A program made the position numbers and the translations under genes. Of a stretch of 22,438 nucleotides of DNA, positions 3,821 through 21,872 are shown in pieces (position 1 is the first letter of the stretch; each line of letters opens with the position of its first letter). Source of the stretch: a virus; the IMG/VR virus record IMGVR_UViG_3300009104_000129, positions 1 through 22,438 of that record, one strand, 5' to 3'. The notes under the pieces were generated by a model, which saw only the letters and a list, made by a program, of their open reading frames with translations, was not told the origin of the DNA and searched no databases.

Positions 3821-4453
3821 TTACAAGGCTTTCTGTAGTTCTTGTGAAACAAACTTTGAGACTTGTTCTCTGTCACTCAAGTCATCTGGCACACCACCAT
3901 TGGGTTCAACCTTTGGAGTGCCTTTGCCAAATGTAGGTGAGGATGGAGGTGAACCAGTGGAATCAAACAATCCGAGTTTCTCAACTTTTCCAAGTGATTC
4001 ACTCATGTTTCCAATACCATCTGGGTCAAGACCTGTCAGATCAATTTTCCCATCTTCATTCTGACTGACATCCAAGAAAGACTTTGCTTTGTCCCAGTTG
4101 GTGTGTGTGGCATACTTGTCCAGTTTCTTTTGGAGGTTGGTCCGAGCACTTTCAGTCCATTTCTGTTCTTTTTCCTTGAGTGTCTGAATCTCTGCTTTGA
4201 GTGCAGAATCATCAAGAGAATTGACTTGGTTTGTGAGAGAATCTACCTGTGCCTTGAGTTCTCTGTTGTCCTTGGCAAGAGATTCATTGTTGATCCTCTT
4301 GTCCTTGTTCTCTGATCCAAATACTTGGACCTTTGCAACCATGTCATCAAACAAACCGCCCATTTTCTGAAGGGCAACCTTGACCTCACTGGAGTCCATT
4401 TCAGTTCCTTTTGAACTGACCTCATTGAGGATTTCATGAAACGATTCAGCCAT
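3821..4453 (-). CDS. Scaffold-like capsid assembly protein
   Basis: A 210-residue acidic, highly helical protein starting MAESFHEILNEVSSKG, with AAAGGAG before the ATG. Residues about 45-115 form a coiled coil (DKRINNESLAKDNRELKAQV, LKAEIQTLKEKEQKWTES). A Pro/Gly-rich linker follows at about 165-190 (STGSPPSSPTFGKGTPK), then a short C-terminal helix (DREQVSKFVSQELQKAL). Such a helix and linker layout, immediately upstream of the capsid gene in transcription order, is the usual signature of a phage scaffolding protein, where the C-terminal helix binds capsid subunits. No protease motif is visible. Confidence 0.75.
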   Translation of the reverse strand: MAESFHEILNEVSSKGTEMDSSEVKVALQKMGGLFDDMVAKVQVFGSENKDKRINNESLAKDNRELKAQVDSLTNQVNSLDDSALKAEIQTLKEKEQKWTESARTNLQKKLDKYATHTNWDKAKSFLDVSQNEDGKIDLTGLDPDGIGNMSESLGKVEKLGLFDSTGSPPSSPTFGKGTPKVEPNGGVPDDLSDREQVSKFVSQELQKAL

Positions 4454-4787: not shown

Positions 4788-6800
4788 TTACTCACTCCCT
4801 TTCCTATATTTCCCTTTTGCAAAATTATGATATTTATCAGACTCAAATCCTTTTGCATAGAAAGAATCAAGATGGACCCCTGTGTCAAGCACTCTGTCAA
4901 GCCTTGTGAAAAACACATCAATTGCAATGTCACTCATCCCTGATTCCTGTTTCATTCTGGTCCTGATGAATTGTTCATTTTGTTTCATGGTTTTCAATTT
5001 GCCCATCCAGTAGTCTGATACTCTTTTTCCTGAATAGGATGTGAGTGGTGTGCCATTTGATGGTGAGCCATGACCTGTGGGGAGAGTCAAACCATTATCA
5101 ATCAATGCAATCCTGACTTCCCATTCCTCCTCTGTGATTGTTTTCTGTGCAGGTGCATTTTTCATCTTTGTATTCAGTTTCCTGATTTCTCTCTTGCTCT
5201 TGGCAACATCTGCCTTTGCACTTTTAACATCTTCAGTCCTTTGAAACACATTCCTTGTCTGGCTCTGGATTCTCATTGTCACATTTCTTAATTCATCACT
5301 GTATGTCTGTGCTCTTTTTGACCATTTGAACCACTCATCTGTGTTGTCCTGTTCTGCAAACTTGTTGGCTTTATCTTCTGCATCTTTTATTTTCTTTTTC
5401 CATAGTGTCTGACCCTTTTTCATATCCTTGAGATGGTCTTTGCCTTGGACCAGTCTTTTTTCCATTATCTCAAGATGTTGCTCATTGTCTTTCAGTGCCT
5501 CTTTCTCTTTGTCTGTGTCTTTCCTGATCTGCACCCTTGGATCAATCTTTTTCTTGACCTGTTTCTTGACAGGTTTTGCCATCCAGTTTCCACCATGCCT
5601 GTCTGTGTTCTGCCCTATTGAGTCAATCAGATACCACCCCTCTGCATGTCTTGGTTTAATCAACTTCCTCCAGTTTTTGATTCCCCTATCACTCAAATAA
5701 TATTGCATATCACTGGATGACATATATCCATCTTTCCATCTCTGGAATGATCCAATCTTTCCTTTGTGCTTTCTCATCACTGTTGTTGGAACCAGACCAA
5801 GACCCATTTCCTCATCCAAGATTGAAAATGCCACCTCTCTCTTGTACTGATTGCCAATCTTGATCCCATCCCTCAACTGGTTGCCCACACTGTATGACTT
5901 TTTTGCTTTAGGCATCCCATACTCTGCCTCATGGCTTTTGAATACACCTTTGACACCATTCTCAAGGATCACACTCTCATTCACACCACCTGCTTTGATG
6001 TCACTCTCTTTCTTGACCTTTGATTTCTCCATTGAGGTCCTATCCTTGGCATGTGCTTTCCCAATCTTGCTCTTTCTTCTTGCTTTTGGACCCTCTGTGA
6101 GTGGTTTCTCCAGTGCAGTCTGGTGTGCCTCCATCTCTGCTTTAAAGTTTCTCTGTGCCACTGCAATCACTCTGTCATTCACATCCTGATATGATGTAGT
6201 CCTTGGGGCAACCTTTGCCTGTTGGTGGACCACATTTTGCATCCTGATGTCCCTCACTCCAAGGATTTCCTCTGCCTGTGTTCCTGCCCCTCTACCTCTG
6301 AACACTGCATTTGATAATGATGACACCTTTTGTCCTCTTTTGACTGGTCTCAACATGCACTTGCATCCTATGTTGCATTCTGTATCTCCCCACCTTGGCA
6401 GTCCCCTGCCCAAATCAAGCCACCCTTGTTTGGTCCTTGGTGGCATCTTTCCGAATCTCAAACAGTCCACACACCCTGATGCCTTTGGGTCCCTCACCCA
6501 GAGATATAGTTGCCCCCTCTCTGCTTTGAGGTCCTCAACAGGTTTGGCAACCATCCTCTGCTCCTGATCTGCAATCATCCTGTGGATTTTCCTTTTGATC
6601 CCAACAAAGTTGCCTGTGTAGTTTTGTGATGAGTATTGCTTTGCATCTGCAACCAGACCTCTCCTCACCTGTGCAGGACTCTCACCATTCAGGACCCTCC
6701 GTTTGAAGTCAGTCTCTGCCTGTGCCAAGATAGCATCAATCTCACCATCCAATTCAAGGGCAGTCAGGTCCACCAGATATTTTGTCCTCCTGTTATTCAT
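4788..6800 (-). CDS. Head morphogenesis protein with PI3/4-kinase-like domain
   Basis: A 670-residue protein, long for its family. Residues 1-155 resemble the Mu gpF/SPP1 gp7 minor head group: helices, then a Cys cluster C110, C113, C142, C146, C148 around GWLDLGRGLPRWGDTECNIG, a likely metal site. Residues about 275-590 look like an atypical (PI3/4K or HipA-like) kinase: VKGVFK with candidate ATP lysine K288, a Glu-bearing helix near E322, catalytic loop QNTDRHGGNW at 397-406, and metal-binding IDNGL at 567-571. Between the last two lies a charged coiled coil, residues about 410-555. ATGA overlap with 6797-7297 and position after the portal support a virion protein injected or packaged with the head. 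Kinase activity is inferred from motifs, not shown. Confidence 0.8.
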   Translation of the reverse strand: MNNRRTKYLVDLTALELDGEIDAILAQAETDFKRRVLNGESPAQVRRGLVADAKQYSSQNYTGNFVGIKRKIHRMIADQEQRMVAKPVEDLKAERGQLYLWVRDPKASGCVDCLRFGKMPPRTKQGWLDLGRGLPRWGDTECNIGCKCMLRPVKRGQKVSSLSNAVFRGRGAGTQAEEILGVRDIRMQNVVHQQAKVAPRTTSYQDVNDRVIAVAQRNFKAEMEAHQTALEKPLTEGPKARRKSKIGKAHAKDRTSMEKSKVKKESDIKAGGVNESVILENGVKGVFKSHEAEYGMPKAKKSYSVGNQLRDGIKIGNQYKREVAFSILDEEMGLGLVPTTVMRKHKGKIGSFQRWKDGYMSSSDMQYYLSDRGIKNWRKLIKPRHAEGWYLIDSIGQNTDRHGGNWMAKPVKKQVKKKIDPRVQIRKDTDKEKEALKDNEQHLEIMEKRLVQGKDHLKDMKKGQTLWKKKIKDAEDKANKFAEQDNTDEWFKWSKRAQTYSDELRNVTMRIQSQTRNVFQRTEDVKSAKADVAKSKREIRKLNTKMKNAPAQKTITEEEWEVRIALIDNGLTLPTGHGSPSNGTPLTSYSGKRVSDYWMGKLKTMKQNEQFIRTRMKQESGMSDIAIDVFFTRLDRVLDTGVHLDSFYAKGFESDKYHNFAKGKYRKGSE

Positions 6801-9020: not shown

Positions 9021-10256
9021 TTATCCTCCTATCATTTGGTGGTTTCTTTGTGTTGTGTAAAATTTATCTGCAAATAGAATCCATGTGATATAATCAAATG
9101 CATCACTGGCATGGGTCCTCATTGGGTCCACCTTGCTCTTGGCTCCTTTGCCATCTGTCTCATTGGACTGTAAATCAGAAATCAAATATTGTGCCTTGTC
9201 TGTGATTGAAATTCTCTTATGTTGAATAAGGGAACAAATGACATTGACCCTGTTGTTGATGTTGGGGTTTTTCCTTGGGACCTTGAGAATGACATGCCAG
9301 TTGTGATTGACCAACTCATCCCTGATTAGGACATAGTCTGATGTGAAATCCCTGTGAGTCTCATATTTTGATGATGCATCTCCTGTCACATAGATCATCT
9401 TTTCTTTCACATGTGCATACTTCTTACAGAACTCTCTGATCAGGTGCTGTGTCTTGGCATTGTATTTCATGACCATCTCATCAATGACAATTATGTGCCC
9501 ATCCACCTCTTGGCAAACCAACCAGATCATTGGACTCTTGTTGAAATCACATGTCAGCCACAGTGGTGATCTCTCATCCCTTGTGATTGAACTTCTCACA
9601 ACTTGAACTGGATCAAAATTGTAGTATAGTGTGCCCTCATAGGTTTCAAAGGTTGCCTCAAACTCCTGCCTGAATGTTCTCTCATCCATCTCTTTCTCTG
9701 CCAGTGCAATCTCTTCTGGGTCCACACAGCCACCATCCTTTGTCTTGTACTCATACACCGCCCAGTCAGGATCATCCATTGCTCTCAAAAATAGGGAATG
9801 GAAATGGTTGTAGCCAGAGGGTGTCCCAGTGAACAGTGCCCTGCCTTTGGTATTTGATAGCATGGGCAGGATCACCATCTGCCAGACCTCTGGTTTCATG
9901 TAGGCATACTCATCCAGAACAACTTTTGTCAAGCCAACACCCCTCAATAGATTGGCTCTATCTGCCCCAACAATCCTGATCTCATTGTTGTTTGGCAGGA
10001 TGGCTTTCAGTTCTGTTTCATTGAATTGGCATTTGGTATCAGACAACATCTGCTTGAGTACATTCCAAGCAATTAGTTTGCCTTGCCTATAGGTGGGAGC
10101 AACAAAGAAACGGATGTCATTTGCTGTGAATTTATCTGACAGCAACCATGTCAAAGACAAGTAAGTTTTCCCCCATCTTCTCCCTGCCACTAAAATGACA
10201 AACCTGTGGGGGTCATGGAGTATGTTTACTCTATTATCATCAACTTTAATTTGCAT
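9021..10256 (-). CDS. terL: Terminase large subunit
   Basis: A 411-residue packaging motor, starting MQIKVDDNRVNILHD at the ATG at 10256; an in-frame TTG lies just before it. It drives ATP-powered DNA translocation into proheads and cuts concatemers. Walker A is GRRWGKT at 25-31, Walker B KVVLDE at 111-116 with catalytic E116, and the coupling motif is LFTGTPSG at 141-148. The RNase-H-like nuclease domain shows D237 in TCDFN, D293 in TGDAS, and D385/D388 in ASDAFD. The start overlaps the small terminase gene by 11 bases. All key residues are present, so it should be active. It comes just before the portal gene in transcription order. Confidence 0.95.
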   Translation of the reverse strand: MQIKVDDNRVNILHDPHRFVILVAGRRWGKTYLSLTWLLSDKFTANDIRFFVAPTYRQGKLIAWNVLKQMLSDTKCQFNETELKAILPNNNEIRIVGADRANLLRGVGLTKVVLDEYAYMKPEVWQMVILPMLSNTKGRALFTGTPSGYNHFHSLFLRAMDDPDWAVYEYKTKDGGCVDPEEIALAEKEMDERTFRQEFEATFETYEGTLYYNFDPVQVVRSSITRDERSPLWLTCDFNKSPMIWLVCQEVDGHIIVIDEMVMKYNAKTQHLIREFCKKYAHVKEKMIYVTGDASSKYETHRDFTSDYVLIRDELVNHNWHVILKVPRKNPNINNRVNVICSLIQHKRISITDKAQYLISDLQSNETDGKGAKSKVDPMRTHASDAFDYITWILFADKFYTTQRNHQMIGG

Positions 10257-10608
10257 CAAGCATGGACTTCACTCTTATCAGTTCAATTGGCTTGACCTGC
10301 TCCTGCTTGGGTTGTCCATTGTCAGATTGTCCAAGATGTTGCTTTCCCCACCATATTGACATGACAGGGACCTCATGTGCCATCCTGAACTGTGCTCTCC
10401 TCACTGAATGCTGTCCACCCAGACTGCCTTTTTTATATAGGCTGTCAAAAGTCTCCTCTCTTTCCGCTTTGCATCTTCTCTGTAAGGTGCGTACAGAAAC
10501 AGCCAGAACTTTTGCTATTTCCTCTTGGGTGCACTGGATTTCACAAAGGCTGTCAAAGACTCCCCAATCTATTTCGATTTTAGGTCTGCCAGTTCTGACT
10601 TTTGTCAT
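10246..10608 (-). CDS. terS: Terminase small subunit
   Basis: A 120-residue protein starting MTKVRTGRPKIEIDWGVFDS, with GGGAG 7 bases before the ATG. Residues 26-46 form a helix-turn-helix (TQEEIAKVLAVSVRTLQRRC) used by small terminases to bind the packaging site. The RAQFRMAHEVPVMSIWWGKQ segment is typical of the phage small terminase group in which a Trp/Gly/Lys-rich motif follows the oligomerisation region. The overlap with terL is standard. The packaging (pac or cos) site would be expected in or near this gene, but I cannot locate it by sequence. Confidence 0.85.
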   Translation of the reverse strand: MTKVRTGRPKIEIDWGVFDSLCEIQCTQEEIAKVLAVSVRTLQRRCKAEREETFDSLYKKGSLGGQHSVRRAQFRMAHEVPVMSIWWGKQHLGQSDNGQPKQEQVKPIELIRVKSMLDAN

Positions 10609-19640: not shown

Positions 19641-19662
19641 ACATCACCTGATCCAAATGAAA

Positions 19663-19688
19663 GGGGCACAGCAATGTGCCCCTTTTTT
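19663..19688 (+). terminator. Intrinsic terminator of the plus-strand gene
   Basis: GGGGCACA (19663-19670), a GCAA tetraloop (19671-19674) and TGTGCCCC (19675-19682) form a perfect 8-bp stem followed by six T residues. It lies 23 bases past the stop codon at 19640. On the other strand only TTTCATTT follows, so it can at best weakly stop the converging minus-strand lysis transcript. The 99 bases from 19689 to 19787 hold no supported gene. Confidence 0.9.
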
Positions 19689-19787
19689 ATTGCCATCATG
19701 ATCAGGAGGTATGGGATGGAGGTAGTCGAGAGTGAGCATGATGACAGAATGCCTGTGGTGGCTCAAATTTGCCCATTCAAGGGACTT

Positions 19788-20090
19788 TTATTTGTTGTCG
19801 GACCTCAACCCCTCCACAAACTTTGCAATCCCTGTCACAGCAATATTATCAATTGCATCTATGATATAGGGTTCAATGGTGGCATTCCAGATTCCTTTTG
19901 TCCATTTAAACTTTGATAATCCCAAAGAACAGGTCACACCAAGACCATACATGAACAACCCAAATTTTGCCTTGATAGTCTCATTTGGAATCTTTTTTAA
20001 AATGTAGGCAACCACCATGCCTGATAAACCTGTGGCTCCATAAGCCAGTGCAGTGCTCCCCAATTTTGCTGTCAATAATTCAATCATCAT
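19788..20090 (-). CDS. Small membrane protein, holin candidate
   Basis: A 100-residue protein starting MMIELLTAKLGSTALAYGAT, with GGGAG before the ATG. Residues about 11-32 (GSTALAYGATGLSGMVVAYI) and 43-58 (FGLFMYGLGVTCSLGL) are hydrophobic and could cross the membrane; the C-terminal half is amphipathic. It is the last gene of the lysis-side cluster in transcription order. Size and membrane segments allow a holin, but the Lys/Trp-rich middle (SKFKWTKGIWNATIEPYIID) suggests a family of its own. No motif proves the role. Confidence 0.6.
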   Translation of the reverse strand: MMIELLTAKLGSTALAYGATGLSGMVVAYILKKIPNETIKAKFGLFMYGLGVTCSLGLSKFKWTKGIWNATIEPYIIDAIDNIAVTGIAKFVEGLRSDNK

Positions 20091-20099
20091 TTTCTCCCT

Positions 20100-20363
20100 T
20101 TATTTTATTATTGCAATCACAATGAGCAGAACTGTGAACAGTGCTGAAATGAATATCCCTGCCCCCCTGTTTGTGTTGCTTGTTTTTTCATTCTCTCTCA
20201 ACCTGTCATTCTGTACTGCAAGGAGGCTGTCAATGCTGTCAAGTCTGTGCATGTACTGATCATGATGCAGGTCAATCTTTTGATCAATGCCCTTGAGTCT
20301 CTCACTCTGGGCAATCATTTGCTTTCCTAAATCTTGGGTGGATTTTTGTGGTCTCCGTTTCAT
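20100..20363 (-). CDS. Coiled-coil protein with C-terminal membrane anchor, XhlA-like
   Basis: An 87-residue protein starting MKRRPQKSTQDLGKQMIAQS. Residues 10-60 form a heptad-like coiled coil (HRLDSIDSLLAVQNDRLREN), and residues 68-86 (AGIFISALFTVLLIVIAIIK) are one membrane segment at the very end. This N-coil, C-anchor layout is that of XhlA-type hemolysin/holin-associated proteins of phage lysis cassettes. The ATG overlaps the stop of the HeH gene by 4 bases. Spanin-like roles are less likely because there is no signal or lipobox. Confidence 0.55.
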   Translation of the reverse strand: MKRRPQKSTQDLGKQMIAQSERLKGIDQKIDLHHDQYMHRLDSIDSLLAVQNDRLRENEKTSNTNRGAGIFISALFTVLLIVIAIIK

Positions 20364-20548
20364 GCTCTTAATACCTTATCCAACAGGTCCCCCTTTGTGT
20401 CTCCAGAATTATATTCAATCTCATGGCTGTCCATGTACTCTTTGATCTGGGTCTTGGTCCACTTGTCGTTTGGCTTTGGTTCAATGACCAGAGGTTTTCC
20501 TGTGTCCTCAATTACTTTGAGGTTGTGTTTCTCAACTATGCTTGGCAT
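20360..20548 (-). CDS. HeH/LEM-domain peptide
   Basis: A 62-residue protein starting MPSIVEKHNLKVIEDTGKPL, with AAGGGG 7 bases before the ATG. Residues 29-60 match the phage HeH/LEM fold: KWTKTQIKEYMDSHEIEYNS, then TKGDLLDKVL. These small helix-extended-helix domains occur in phage structural or accessory proteins and can bind nucleic acid or proteins. The first 28 residues are strand-like. It lies between two membrane proteins, so a lysis-cluster accessory role is suggested by position only. Confidence 0.65.
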   Translation of the reverse strand: MPSIVEKHNLKVIEDTGKPLVIEPKPNDKWTKTQIKEYMDSHEIEYNSGDTKGDLLDKVLRA

Positions 20549-20549
20549 T

Positions 20550-20897
20550 TCATTTCCCCTTTTTCTTTGACTTCCATGAGAATGGGTTCAAACTTACTCC
20601 ACCCACCTTGACAATTTCCTGCTCATACCATTTGATGGTTTCCTCCATCTGTGCCAGTTTAGCATTGGACTCCTGTTCATGGATTGAGATGAGTGTTTCA
20701 AGTTGGAGTTGGTTCTCTGCAATTGTGTTCTCAATGTTGATGATCTTCATCTGGTATGTGTAAAAGGTGTAAATCAATGAACCCACCAAGACAAACAATT
20801 GAATGAGCCATTTGAAATTTACTGTCACAGAAAATGAATCTGATCCAATGACTTGACTCTTGAATGATCTTGCTCCATTGTCCATGTCCTTTTGCAT
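20550..20897 (-). CDS. Membrane-anchored coiled-coil protein
   Basis: A 115-residue protein starting MQKDMDNGARSFKSQVIGSD. Residues 29-48 (KWLIQLFVLVGSLIYTFYTY) form a single membrane segment; residues 50-92 are a coiled coil (IINIENTIAENQLQLETLIS), and the tail ends WKSKKKGK. This resembles an inner-membrane spanin layout (N-terminal anchor, periplasmic coil), though no partner lipoprotein is seen. The ATG shares a base with the stop of the MscS-like gene (TAATG). The last residues overlap the ribosome site of the HeH gene. Confidence 0.6.
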   Translation of the reverse strand: MQKDMDNGARSFKSQVIGSDSFSVTVNFKWLIQLFVLVGSLIYTFYTYQMKIINIENTIAENQLQLETLISIHEQESNAKLAQMEETIKWYEQEIVKVGGVSLNPFSWKSKKKGK

Positions 20898-21307
20898 TAT
20901 TCAACAAGACCCTCACCCATTTCTTTCTTGGTTGGTTCCTCTCCCTCTTTGTAGAGACCCCCATCTGGATCATCTTCTGTGGGCAATTGTGAAAGGTCTG
21001 CCATTGGGAGTGCTTTCTCCATCCTTTGTGATTCCAGTTCATGGTTTGGGATTGTCATCTTTGTGCCTCTGTCATAGAATATCAATGTGGTTTTCATCAT
21101 CCCAATTTTGGTGATCCTTGCCACTCTGTTGTATATCCAGATGACATCCAGTTCATTAAAGTCTCTGCTCTTGTAAAACCTGACACCTGCAATTGCATTG
21201 ATGACAGCCTCCCTGAAAAAGAATCCTGCCACCATAATGACAGCAACCCATACCCAGTGCCCAAAGAACTGTTCAATTTCTGGTGATAATTGTGGTATTT
21301 CAGCCAT
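20897..21307 (-). CDS. Truncated MscS-like membrane protein
   Basis: A 136-residue protein starting MAEIPQLSPEIEQFFGHWVW. Residues 13-34 (VAVIMVAGFFFREAVINAIA) are a membrane helix that runs into a short amphipathic segment. Residues 44-90 match the MscS beta domain: DFNELDVIWIYNRVARITKI, then GMMKTTLIFYDRGTKMTIPN, including the T-L-I/M-x and I-P-N-x-E/K-L positions of that fold. The C-terminal alpha/beta cage of MscS is replaced by an acidic tail (LPTEDDPDGGLYKEGEE). MscS normally has three helices per subunit and opens under membrane tension. Next to the endolysin this could act as a pore. No ribosome site precedes the ATG. Confidence 0.65.
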   Translation of the reverse strand: MAEIPQLSPEIEQFFGHWVWVAVIMVAGFFFREAVINAIAGVRFYKSRDFNELDVIWIYNRVARITKIGMMKTTLIFYDRGTKMTIPNHELESQRMEKALPMADLSQLPTEDDPDGGLYKEGEEPTKKEMGEGLVE

Positions 21308-21356: not shown

Positions 21357-21872
21357 TCATGACTCTAACTTTGAGACTGCTCTCCTGAACCACCCAAACC
21401 AGAACTTCATCTGTGTTGGTTTGTTCAAGACCAATTTTGAATAGTGTAATACATTGAATGCAACAAGCCTGTCAACCTCAAGGTTCCCACATGCCTTTGC
21501 TGTCATTCTCCCAATGTAGCCATCCACAGCAATCTGGCTGTCTTTTTTCCTCTGGTTCTTGCTGTTGGTTGCCTCCTGTAGAATCTTGACCCCTCTCCTG
21601 CCTTTATTGACAACCATGTCAAAGGTCATCCCCTGCAGGTGCTCTGGCAATAATTCTATTTTGTACTTTTTCCAATAGAATTCCCAGTAGATTTTTACTG
21701 CATCTGCTTTGGTCAGGTCCAGAATGTTGGTGTCAGGGAATGCTCTCTTGGAGATTCCAAATTTAGTCTCTCCTCCTGCATCATCCTTTGTGTTGCTGTA
21801 TCCACCCTCATGCTCCAGAACCCTCTCAACCTCCCTCATGAAGATTTTCGAGTATGTGAGATCAGTGCTCAT
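21357..21872 (-). CDS. GH108 endolysin (N-acetylmuramidase)
   Basis: A 171-residue enzyme starting MSTDLTYSKIFMREVERVLE. The GH108 signature is present: VERVLEHEGGYSNTKDDAGG with catalytic E22, then GETKFGIS at 34-41. GH108 enzymes hydrolyse the beta-1,4 bond after N-acetylmuramic acid in peptidoglycan. The C-terminal half (AVDGYIGRMTAKACGNLEVD, then WFGWFRRAVSKL) matches the binding region that usually follows the catalytic domain. There is no signal peptide, so it needs a holin or pore for access. It is followed by the MscS-like gene after a 49-base gap. Confidence 0.85.
   Translation of the reverse strand: MSTDLTYSKIFMREVERVLEHEGGYSNTKDDAGGETKFGISKRAFPDTNILDLTKADAVKIYWEFYWKKYKIELLPEHLQGMTFDMVVNKGRRGVKILQEATNSKNQRKKDSQIAVDGYIGRMTAKACGNLEVDRLVAFNVLHYSKLVLNKPTQMKFWFGWFRRAVSKLES

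Follow-up and report, generated by a model that had tools for sequence, protein, structure and literature searches.

A phage protein family with a minimal MscS layout, encoded beside an endolysin in one lineage

We report a family of small phage proteins that almost certainly belongs to the MscS superfamily. The member studied here, which we call F, is a 136-aa mini-MscS protein encoded by ORF 20897-21307 (minus strand) of the window, the whole stretch of DNA analyzed here: a 22,438-base virus record, a linear fragment in IMG/VR. Our best reading, favored tentatively, is that F is a predicted channel, a minimal MscS-superfamily pore of phages that would leak or release ions and osmolytes and that, in this lineage, would act as an accessory on the lysis side.

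Layout and predicted fold of F

F starts with ATG and ends at TAATG, where its stop codon runs into the start codon of the next ORF. The protein has a short acidic N-tail, a TM3a-like helix, a TM3b-like amphipathic helix, a beta domain and an acidic, low-confidence C-tail. Hydropathy and alignment columns place the membrane helix, which corresponds to MscS TM3a, at about residues 13-31 (21215-21271, minus strand); the PF00924 match, an AlphaFold2 model and the fold search place the MscS beta domain at residues 50-94 (21026-21160, minus strand). The helix is the only hydrophobic stretch, and with about 12 residues ahead of it there is no TM1-TM2 sensor paddle. After the beta domain come only about 36 residues, modeled at low confidence, and the C-terminal alpha/beta cage with side portals is absent. 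A preliminary description of this DNA had proposed one membrane helix plus an MscS-type beta domain at this ORF, had assigned residues 44-90 to that domain, and had noted that two MscS helices and the C-terminal cage were missing. Our analysis bears out the ORF, its coordinates and the domain; PF00924 aligns over residues 35-94, family and fold agree with it, and TM1, TM2 and the cage are indeed lacking.

F evolves under purifying selection. Against a 70%-identical homologue on a second contig, L002, pS was 0.70 and pN 0.16 (dN/dS about 0.09), and dN/dS lay between 0.05 and 0.17 across the four pairs tested, this pair among them. These low values rule out a spurious ORF. Across 108 family sequences, the 16 residues that precede the helix carried a mean net charge of -1.7 and the 18 that follow it one of -0.45, a pattern that weakly fits an N-out topology.

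The AlphaFold2 model of F (pLDDT 74.9, pTM 0.50) has a helix at residues 9-47 and strands at 55-58, 61-68, 72-77 and 82-87. A second AlphaFold run with nine sequences scored lower (pLDDT 63.2) and left the topology unchanged, with the helix broken at residue 31. In a Foldseek search with the model, MscK (E 5e-4), FLYC1, MSL10 and MscS led; 46 of the best 50 matches were named MscS-type channels, and the other four were titled "a membrane protein" (3udc, 3t9n), entries that we take to be MscS. VIA-align gave MscS-type proteins in its first 40 matches (one titled "a membrane protein"; Z 7.9-10.7, with TcMscS at 9.0); SH3-like folds, CarD and a Tudor domain among them, came further down, at Z about 7.3-7.5. 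The fold search thus ranks MscS, MscK, MSL10 and TcMscS first, which agrees with the mini-MscS proposal of the preliminary description. A viral structure library additionally contains three unnamed small proteins with an F-like fold (E 7e-7 to 1.5e-5), and some F members may therefore already be in UniProt.

Kinship with MscS and spread of the family

The window sequence by itself is only suggestive of kinship with MscS. F matched PF00924 over residues 35-94 at E 0.072 and 13.7 bits, and its 65-aa core at E 0.023; the window scores ranged from 13.7 to 15.2 bits overall, below the Pfam cut-off of 20.2. None of eight reversed or shuffled controls matched the profile. The L002 homologue had no Pfam match, and a genome-style PF00924 search matched 0 of 2 records. 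A phmmer search of F against the PDB put unrelated chains on top, with MscM appearing at E 1.4-1.5 only (3 of 15 matches).

The relatives make the case. When eight of them were compared with PF00924, seven gave a match and four exceeded the cut-off (24.9-27.4 bits against 20.2), so that the profile check proposed in the preliminary description, while sub-threshold for the window itself (E 0.07), comes out in its favor through the family. A profile built from 47 family sequences, searched against the PDB at E up to 10, returned 20 chains, every one an MscS-type channel; the top chain was 4hw9 (H. pylori MscS), at E 0.0013 over TM3 and the beta domain. We consider the MscS identity of F firm because relatives pass PF00924, the family profile finds MscS-type channels, and the predicted fold ranks such channels first. 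Chance resemblance to MscS was ruled out by the controls, the relatives' Pfam scores, the PDB profile search and Foldseek.

The consensus of the family core reads FKD..NFA.G....G.DF.NDDI.YISGRQARIVRVG...T.FYMTDR.TKM.VPN..L., and all 47 diverse members compared share eight residues: R61, G69, T73, D79, T82, P87, N88 and E97. Residues were matched to the E. coli MscS sequence. When F50 is set equal to MscS F130, the helix and TM3b align gap-free; N37, A40 and G41 of the window protein lie opposite N117, A120 and G121, and T73, D79, P87 and N88 equal MscS T153, D159, P166 and N167. On this numbering, T153, D159, P166 and N167 are kept in 47/47 members each, G140 in 45/47, G121 in 44/47 and F130 in 40/47. 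The beta-domain turn of F is longer than that of MscS by one residue. A charged pair, R32-E33, sits where MscS has its Q112-G113 kink (K/R in 46/47 and D/E in 44/47 of the family). Also specific to the family are R61, which never varies, and EK at positions 97-98 (E 47/47, K 45/47). At position 25, 43/47 members have A or G, and at position 29 all 47/47 have a bulky hydrophobic residue; F itself has M25 and F29.

We gathered the relatives by scanning viral contigs with a degenerate nucleotide pattern based on the motif. At least 119 contigs matched, of which 111 were confirmed by translation and eight were chance matches, and the family is therefore present on at least 111 viral contigs. Sixteen of the 111 carry two copies, a long and a short form, on opposite strands in 15 of the 16 (L085, L087, L091, L095, L100, L106, L118, L122, L128, L144, L145, L172, L176, L187, L191 and L196); such paired paralogues could form hetero-oligomers. 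The L002 contig was the sole match to a pattern (N60) made for the sub-lineage of the window. In a further search (A4), genome contigs yielded one match, a phage-like contig within a Flavobacteriales MAG that carries the PhoH-type phage genes as well. Patterns from a two-sequence alignment found nothing among viral or genome contigs because they were poor. No INPHARED match was found for any of the five F members tried, the window protein included, and the 65-aa core matched only eight Klebsiella phage records there, at E 0.2 or worse and mostly at thymidylate synthase. The plasmids searched gave two MscS proteins at E 0.9, and PHROGs gave chance-level matches only for F and eight relatives. 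The family is thus large, apparently unnamed, and carried by marine phages, "marine" being a label that rests on phage relatives and sampling names rather than on a habitat table.

Several known proteins resemble F in part. With MscS, MscK and MSL10 (PF00924) it shares the TM3b and beta-domain fold and the conserved T, D, P, N and Gly residues, whereas it lacks the paddle helices and the cage and has the longer beta turn and the charged pair at the TM3 kink. MscS2 of Nematocida displodere is described as consisting of TM3 and the beta domain and as assembling into a heptamer whose beta-domain ring measures about 26 A (PMC11262690). F is like it in having a TM3-like helix and beta domain alone, with no TM1-TM2 and no full cage; unlike F, MscS2 comes from a eukaryotic parasite, has a possible signal sequence, and is not known to be connected with phages or lysis. 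The same source states that E. coli MscS without both cytoplasmic domains is not inserted in the membrane (PMC11262690), and hence a cage-less form need not work. The cage-less TcMscS of Trypanosoma cruzi (165 aa; PDB 9bgq, 9bgu) is described as conducting under tension, at 478 pS, with a narrowest transmembrane point of 10.8 A and a gate at A60/F64 (PMC12334622). Most of the F family is TcMscS-like in its lack of a cage, its beta domain, and the small and then bulky gate residues (positions 25 and 29); TcMscS differs in having an N helix and TM2 besides TM3, whereas F has one helix and is a predicted channel.

Among phages, HHpred reportedly matched gp51 of Paraglaciecola phage PANV1 to MscS (6RLD), and a single TM helix was assigned to this protein with uncertainty (PMC9239159). 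Both it and the F family are phage matches to MscS, and gp51, a single mention that we liken to F by its description only, is one earlier, single-protein hint of a phage mini-MscS. MscL genes have been reported from estuarine viromes (PMC13288924). Both the MscS superfamily and, in two eukaryote groups, minimal MscS proteins are already known; the large phage family of TM3 plus beta domain is a new variant. Our literature search, to which subscription papers and preprints were mostly not open, returned no description of the F family or of an MscS-type holin.

Gene neighborhood in the window and in other phages

In the window and in L002 the endolysin gene is followed by F, and F by genes for small proteins; neighboring genes either overlap or lie no more than about 50 bases apart. 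The GH108 endolysin (171 aa; 21357-21872, minus strand; PF05838 E 6.3e-22, phrog_315 E 6.9e-35) has no signal or SAR helix; its best 19-residue hydropathy is 0.85 and its N-terminus is not hydrophobic. From its stop to the start of F there are 49 bases, in agreement with the earlier placement of F directly after the endolysin in transcription order. Beyond F, all on the minus strand, lie a 115-aa protein with one TM and then a coiled coil (20550-20897; related to phrog_20984, E 0.0068), a 62-aa soluble protein (20360-20548; weak Ish1/SAP-like match), an 87-aa protein with a coiled coil and then a C-terminal TM (20100-20363; from hydropathy, with a homologue in L002), and a 100-aa weakly hydrophobic protein (19788-20090; best 19-residue hydropathy 1.44) that is a possible, doubtful two-helix membrane protein. 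Of the three small membrane proteins described previously at this place, the 115-aa and 87-aa proteins are thus clear and the 100-aa protein is doubtful, while the 62-aa protein is soluble. The terminase large subunit is encoded at 9021-10259 (minus strand).

The 115-aa protein aligns with proteins near F in other phages and is, by its layout, a candidate i-spanin-like protein. In pelagiphage HTVC121P a phrog_20984-type relative has the tail fibre on one side and DNA maturase B on the other, with a murein hydrolase nearby, and in pelagiphage HTVC027P another lies two genes from a peptidase M15; these lysis-region relatives support a lysis-type operon in the window. On contig L109 (2669-3243) a phrog_20984-like gene and, directly after it, a lipoprotein-like gene (Cys after a hydrophobic N-terminus), a possible spanin pair, precede the mini-MscS gene by about 700 bases.

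Upstream of the endolysin in transcription order, the window encodes a truncated nucleotidyltransferase-domain protein (PF01909; 22142-22438), and L002 has a related gene just upstream of its endolysin (3988-4446). At the far end of the operon, similar hairpins occur in the window (GGGGCACAGCAATGTGCCCC, 19660-19690) and in L002 (AAAGGGACACATTGCTGTGTCCCTTT, about 6170-6200). They look terminator-like by eye and are absent from the output of the scan that gave the promoter counts; that scan found fewer promoter sites than in shuffles.

Adjacency of F to an endolysin is clearly not general. GH108 was found in 2 of 34 records, namely the window and L002. The wall hydrolase Hydrolase_2 (PF07486) occurred in 4 of 33 records, at 11.1, 16.4, 10.5 and 10.9 kb from F, and Peptidase_M15_3, Phage_lysozyme, Amidase_2, Peptidase_M15_4 and SLT in 0 of 33 each; the records searched were mostly fragments, and absence of an endolysin from them is therefore not proof. 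Conversely, among 80 loci from an endolysin scan, F was present in one (L004, which is the L002 contig) and not in the other 79. The contigs L005 and L006 encode endolysins about 80% identical to that of the window and have no F; directly upstream of the GH108 endolysin they carry membrane-type genes of 203, 87 and 76 aa (L005:3780-4893, L006:394-1507).

Elsewhere F neighbors genes for tail fibre or laminin-G proteins, sheath, PhoH, sigma-like proteins and glycosyltransferases. Small TM proteins made up 67 of the 339 same-strand ORFs within 1.5 kb of F and 31 of the 329 further away; averaged over groups, the share was 0.22 near F and 0.15 far from it (28 and 23 groups), a weak difference. When 93 neighbor representatives were assigned to families (88 and 39 families), no lysis family stood among the best 25 entries, although a less common one may lie below them. 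No holin family in Pfam or PHROGs was matched by F or by the relatives scanned. In a PhoH-type phage (L204:7513-9437), two proteins beside F have prepilin-type N-termini (GFTLVELLVVIGIIALL, GFTLIELLVVIAIIAIL), which is unusual for a phage.

Possible functions of F

On the reading that we favor, F would represent the pore core of MscS, TM3 plus beta domain, free of the tension-sensing paddle and the cytoplasmic cage. The N-tail would be periplasmic and the beta domain cytoplasmic, and in the inner membrane of the host several subunits would assemble into a ring, seven of them if MscS2 and TcMscS are a guide; this ring would pass ions or small osmolytes, by leak or by opening under tension. Some channel activity of F is somewhat probable. 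With less confidence, F in the window lineage may be co-produced with the lysis proteins and aid lysis through lower membrane potential or turgor, and we regard such an accessory role as possible but doubtful. The large hole would be made by another small membrane protein of the operon, perhaps the 100-aa or the 87-aa protein, and the drop in potential or turgor caused by F could help set off the real holin. In other phage lineages F probably has a membrane role that is not tied to an endolysin.

Because its N-terminus is not hydrophobic, the endolysin needs a large hole. The diameter of a compact 20-kDa protein is estimated at about 36 A, while known MscS-type pores measure about 11 A to 26 A; judged against those pores, F is therefore an unlikely exit hole for the folded 171-aa endolysin, and the other small membrane proteins of the operon appear to be better candidates for the main holin. 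The preliminary description had suggested that an MscS-like pore itself acts as holin and releases the endolysin. Its mini-MscS stands, on family and fold; its holin we consider unlikely. F does adjoin the endolysin in both members of the lineage, and it is a small membrane protein whose one helix follows an acidic N-tail, like holins and pinholins in its size and position, but it differs from them in its MscS beta domain and in matching no holin family, and its neighboring endolysin is soluble, with no signal and not of the SAR type, and would need a hole wider than known MscS-type pores. In other phages searched no endolysin lies near F, and the close relatives of the endolysin in L005 and L006 do without F and have other small membrane genes upstream.

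The endolysin's proximity may instead be ordinary late-gene packing with no part in lysis, F being an osmotic or ionic safety valve that holds turgor and ion balance of the infected cell within bounds while the phage replicates. We give this a limited chance: in most lineages F lies away from wall hydrolases, near tail-fibre, sheath, PhoH and glycosyltransferase genes, and the two copies on 16 of 111 contigs suggest a role in dosage or tuning, but the TM1-TM2 tension sensor is gone, and in the window and L002 the operon is tightly packed and, apart from F, looks like a lysis operon. It is rather unlikely that F is not a channel at all and that its helix anchors a ring or oligomer of beta domains, as a scaffold or to block superinfection or some other process at the membrane. 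In favor of this, the family does not retain the Gly/Ala pattern that lines the pore in MscS TM3a, the hinge holds the charged K/R-D/E pair (46/47, 44/47), and the beta domain, taken by itself, is similar to SH3-like folds (CarD, a Tudor domain); however, TM3b and the beta domain are conserved together, gap-free against MscS, and the same reduced layout is described as a heptameric pore in MscS2 (PMC11262690).

Endolysin synteny in one lineage does not make F a holin. A more specific idea, to which we assign a low probability, is that many marine phages use single-helix MscS channels of this family to set host membrane tension or potential and that, in this one lineage, F was moved into the lysis operon as a tension- or voltage-linked trigger of the true holin. 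If true, such a trigger would be a new kind of lysis-timing device, and F would be among the smallest MscS-type channels. If F conducts, it would offer a very small natural MscS channel in which to ask what the paddle and the cage do, and it would mean that phages manage the membrane tension or potential of their hosts.
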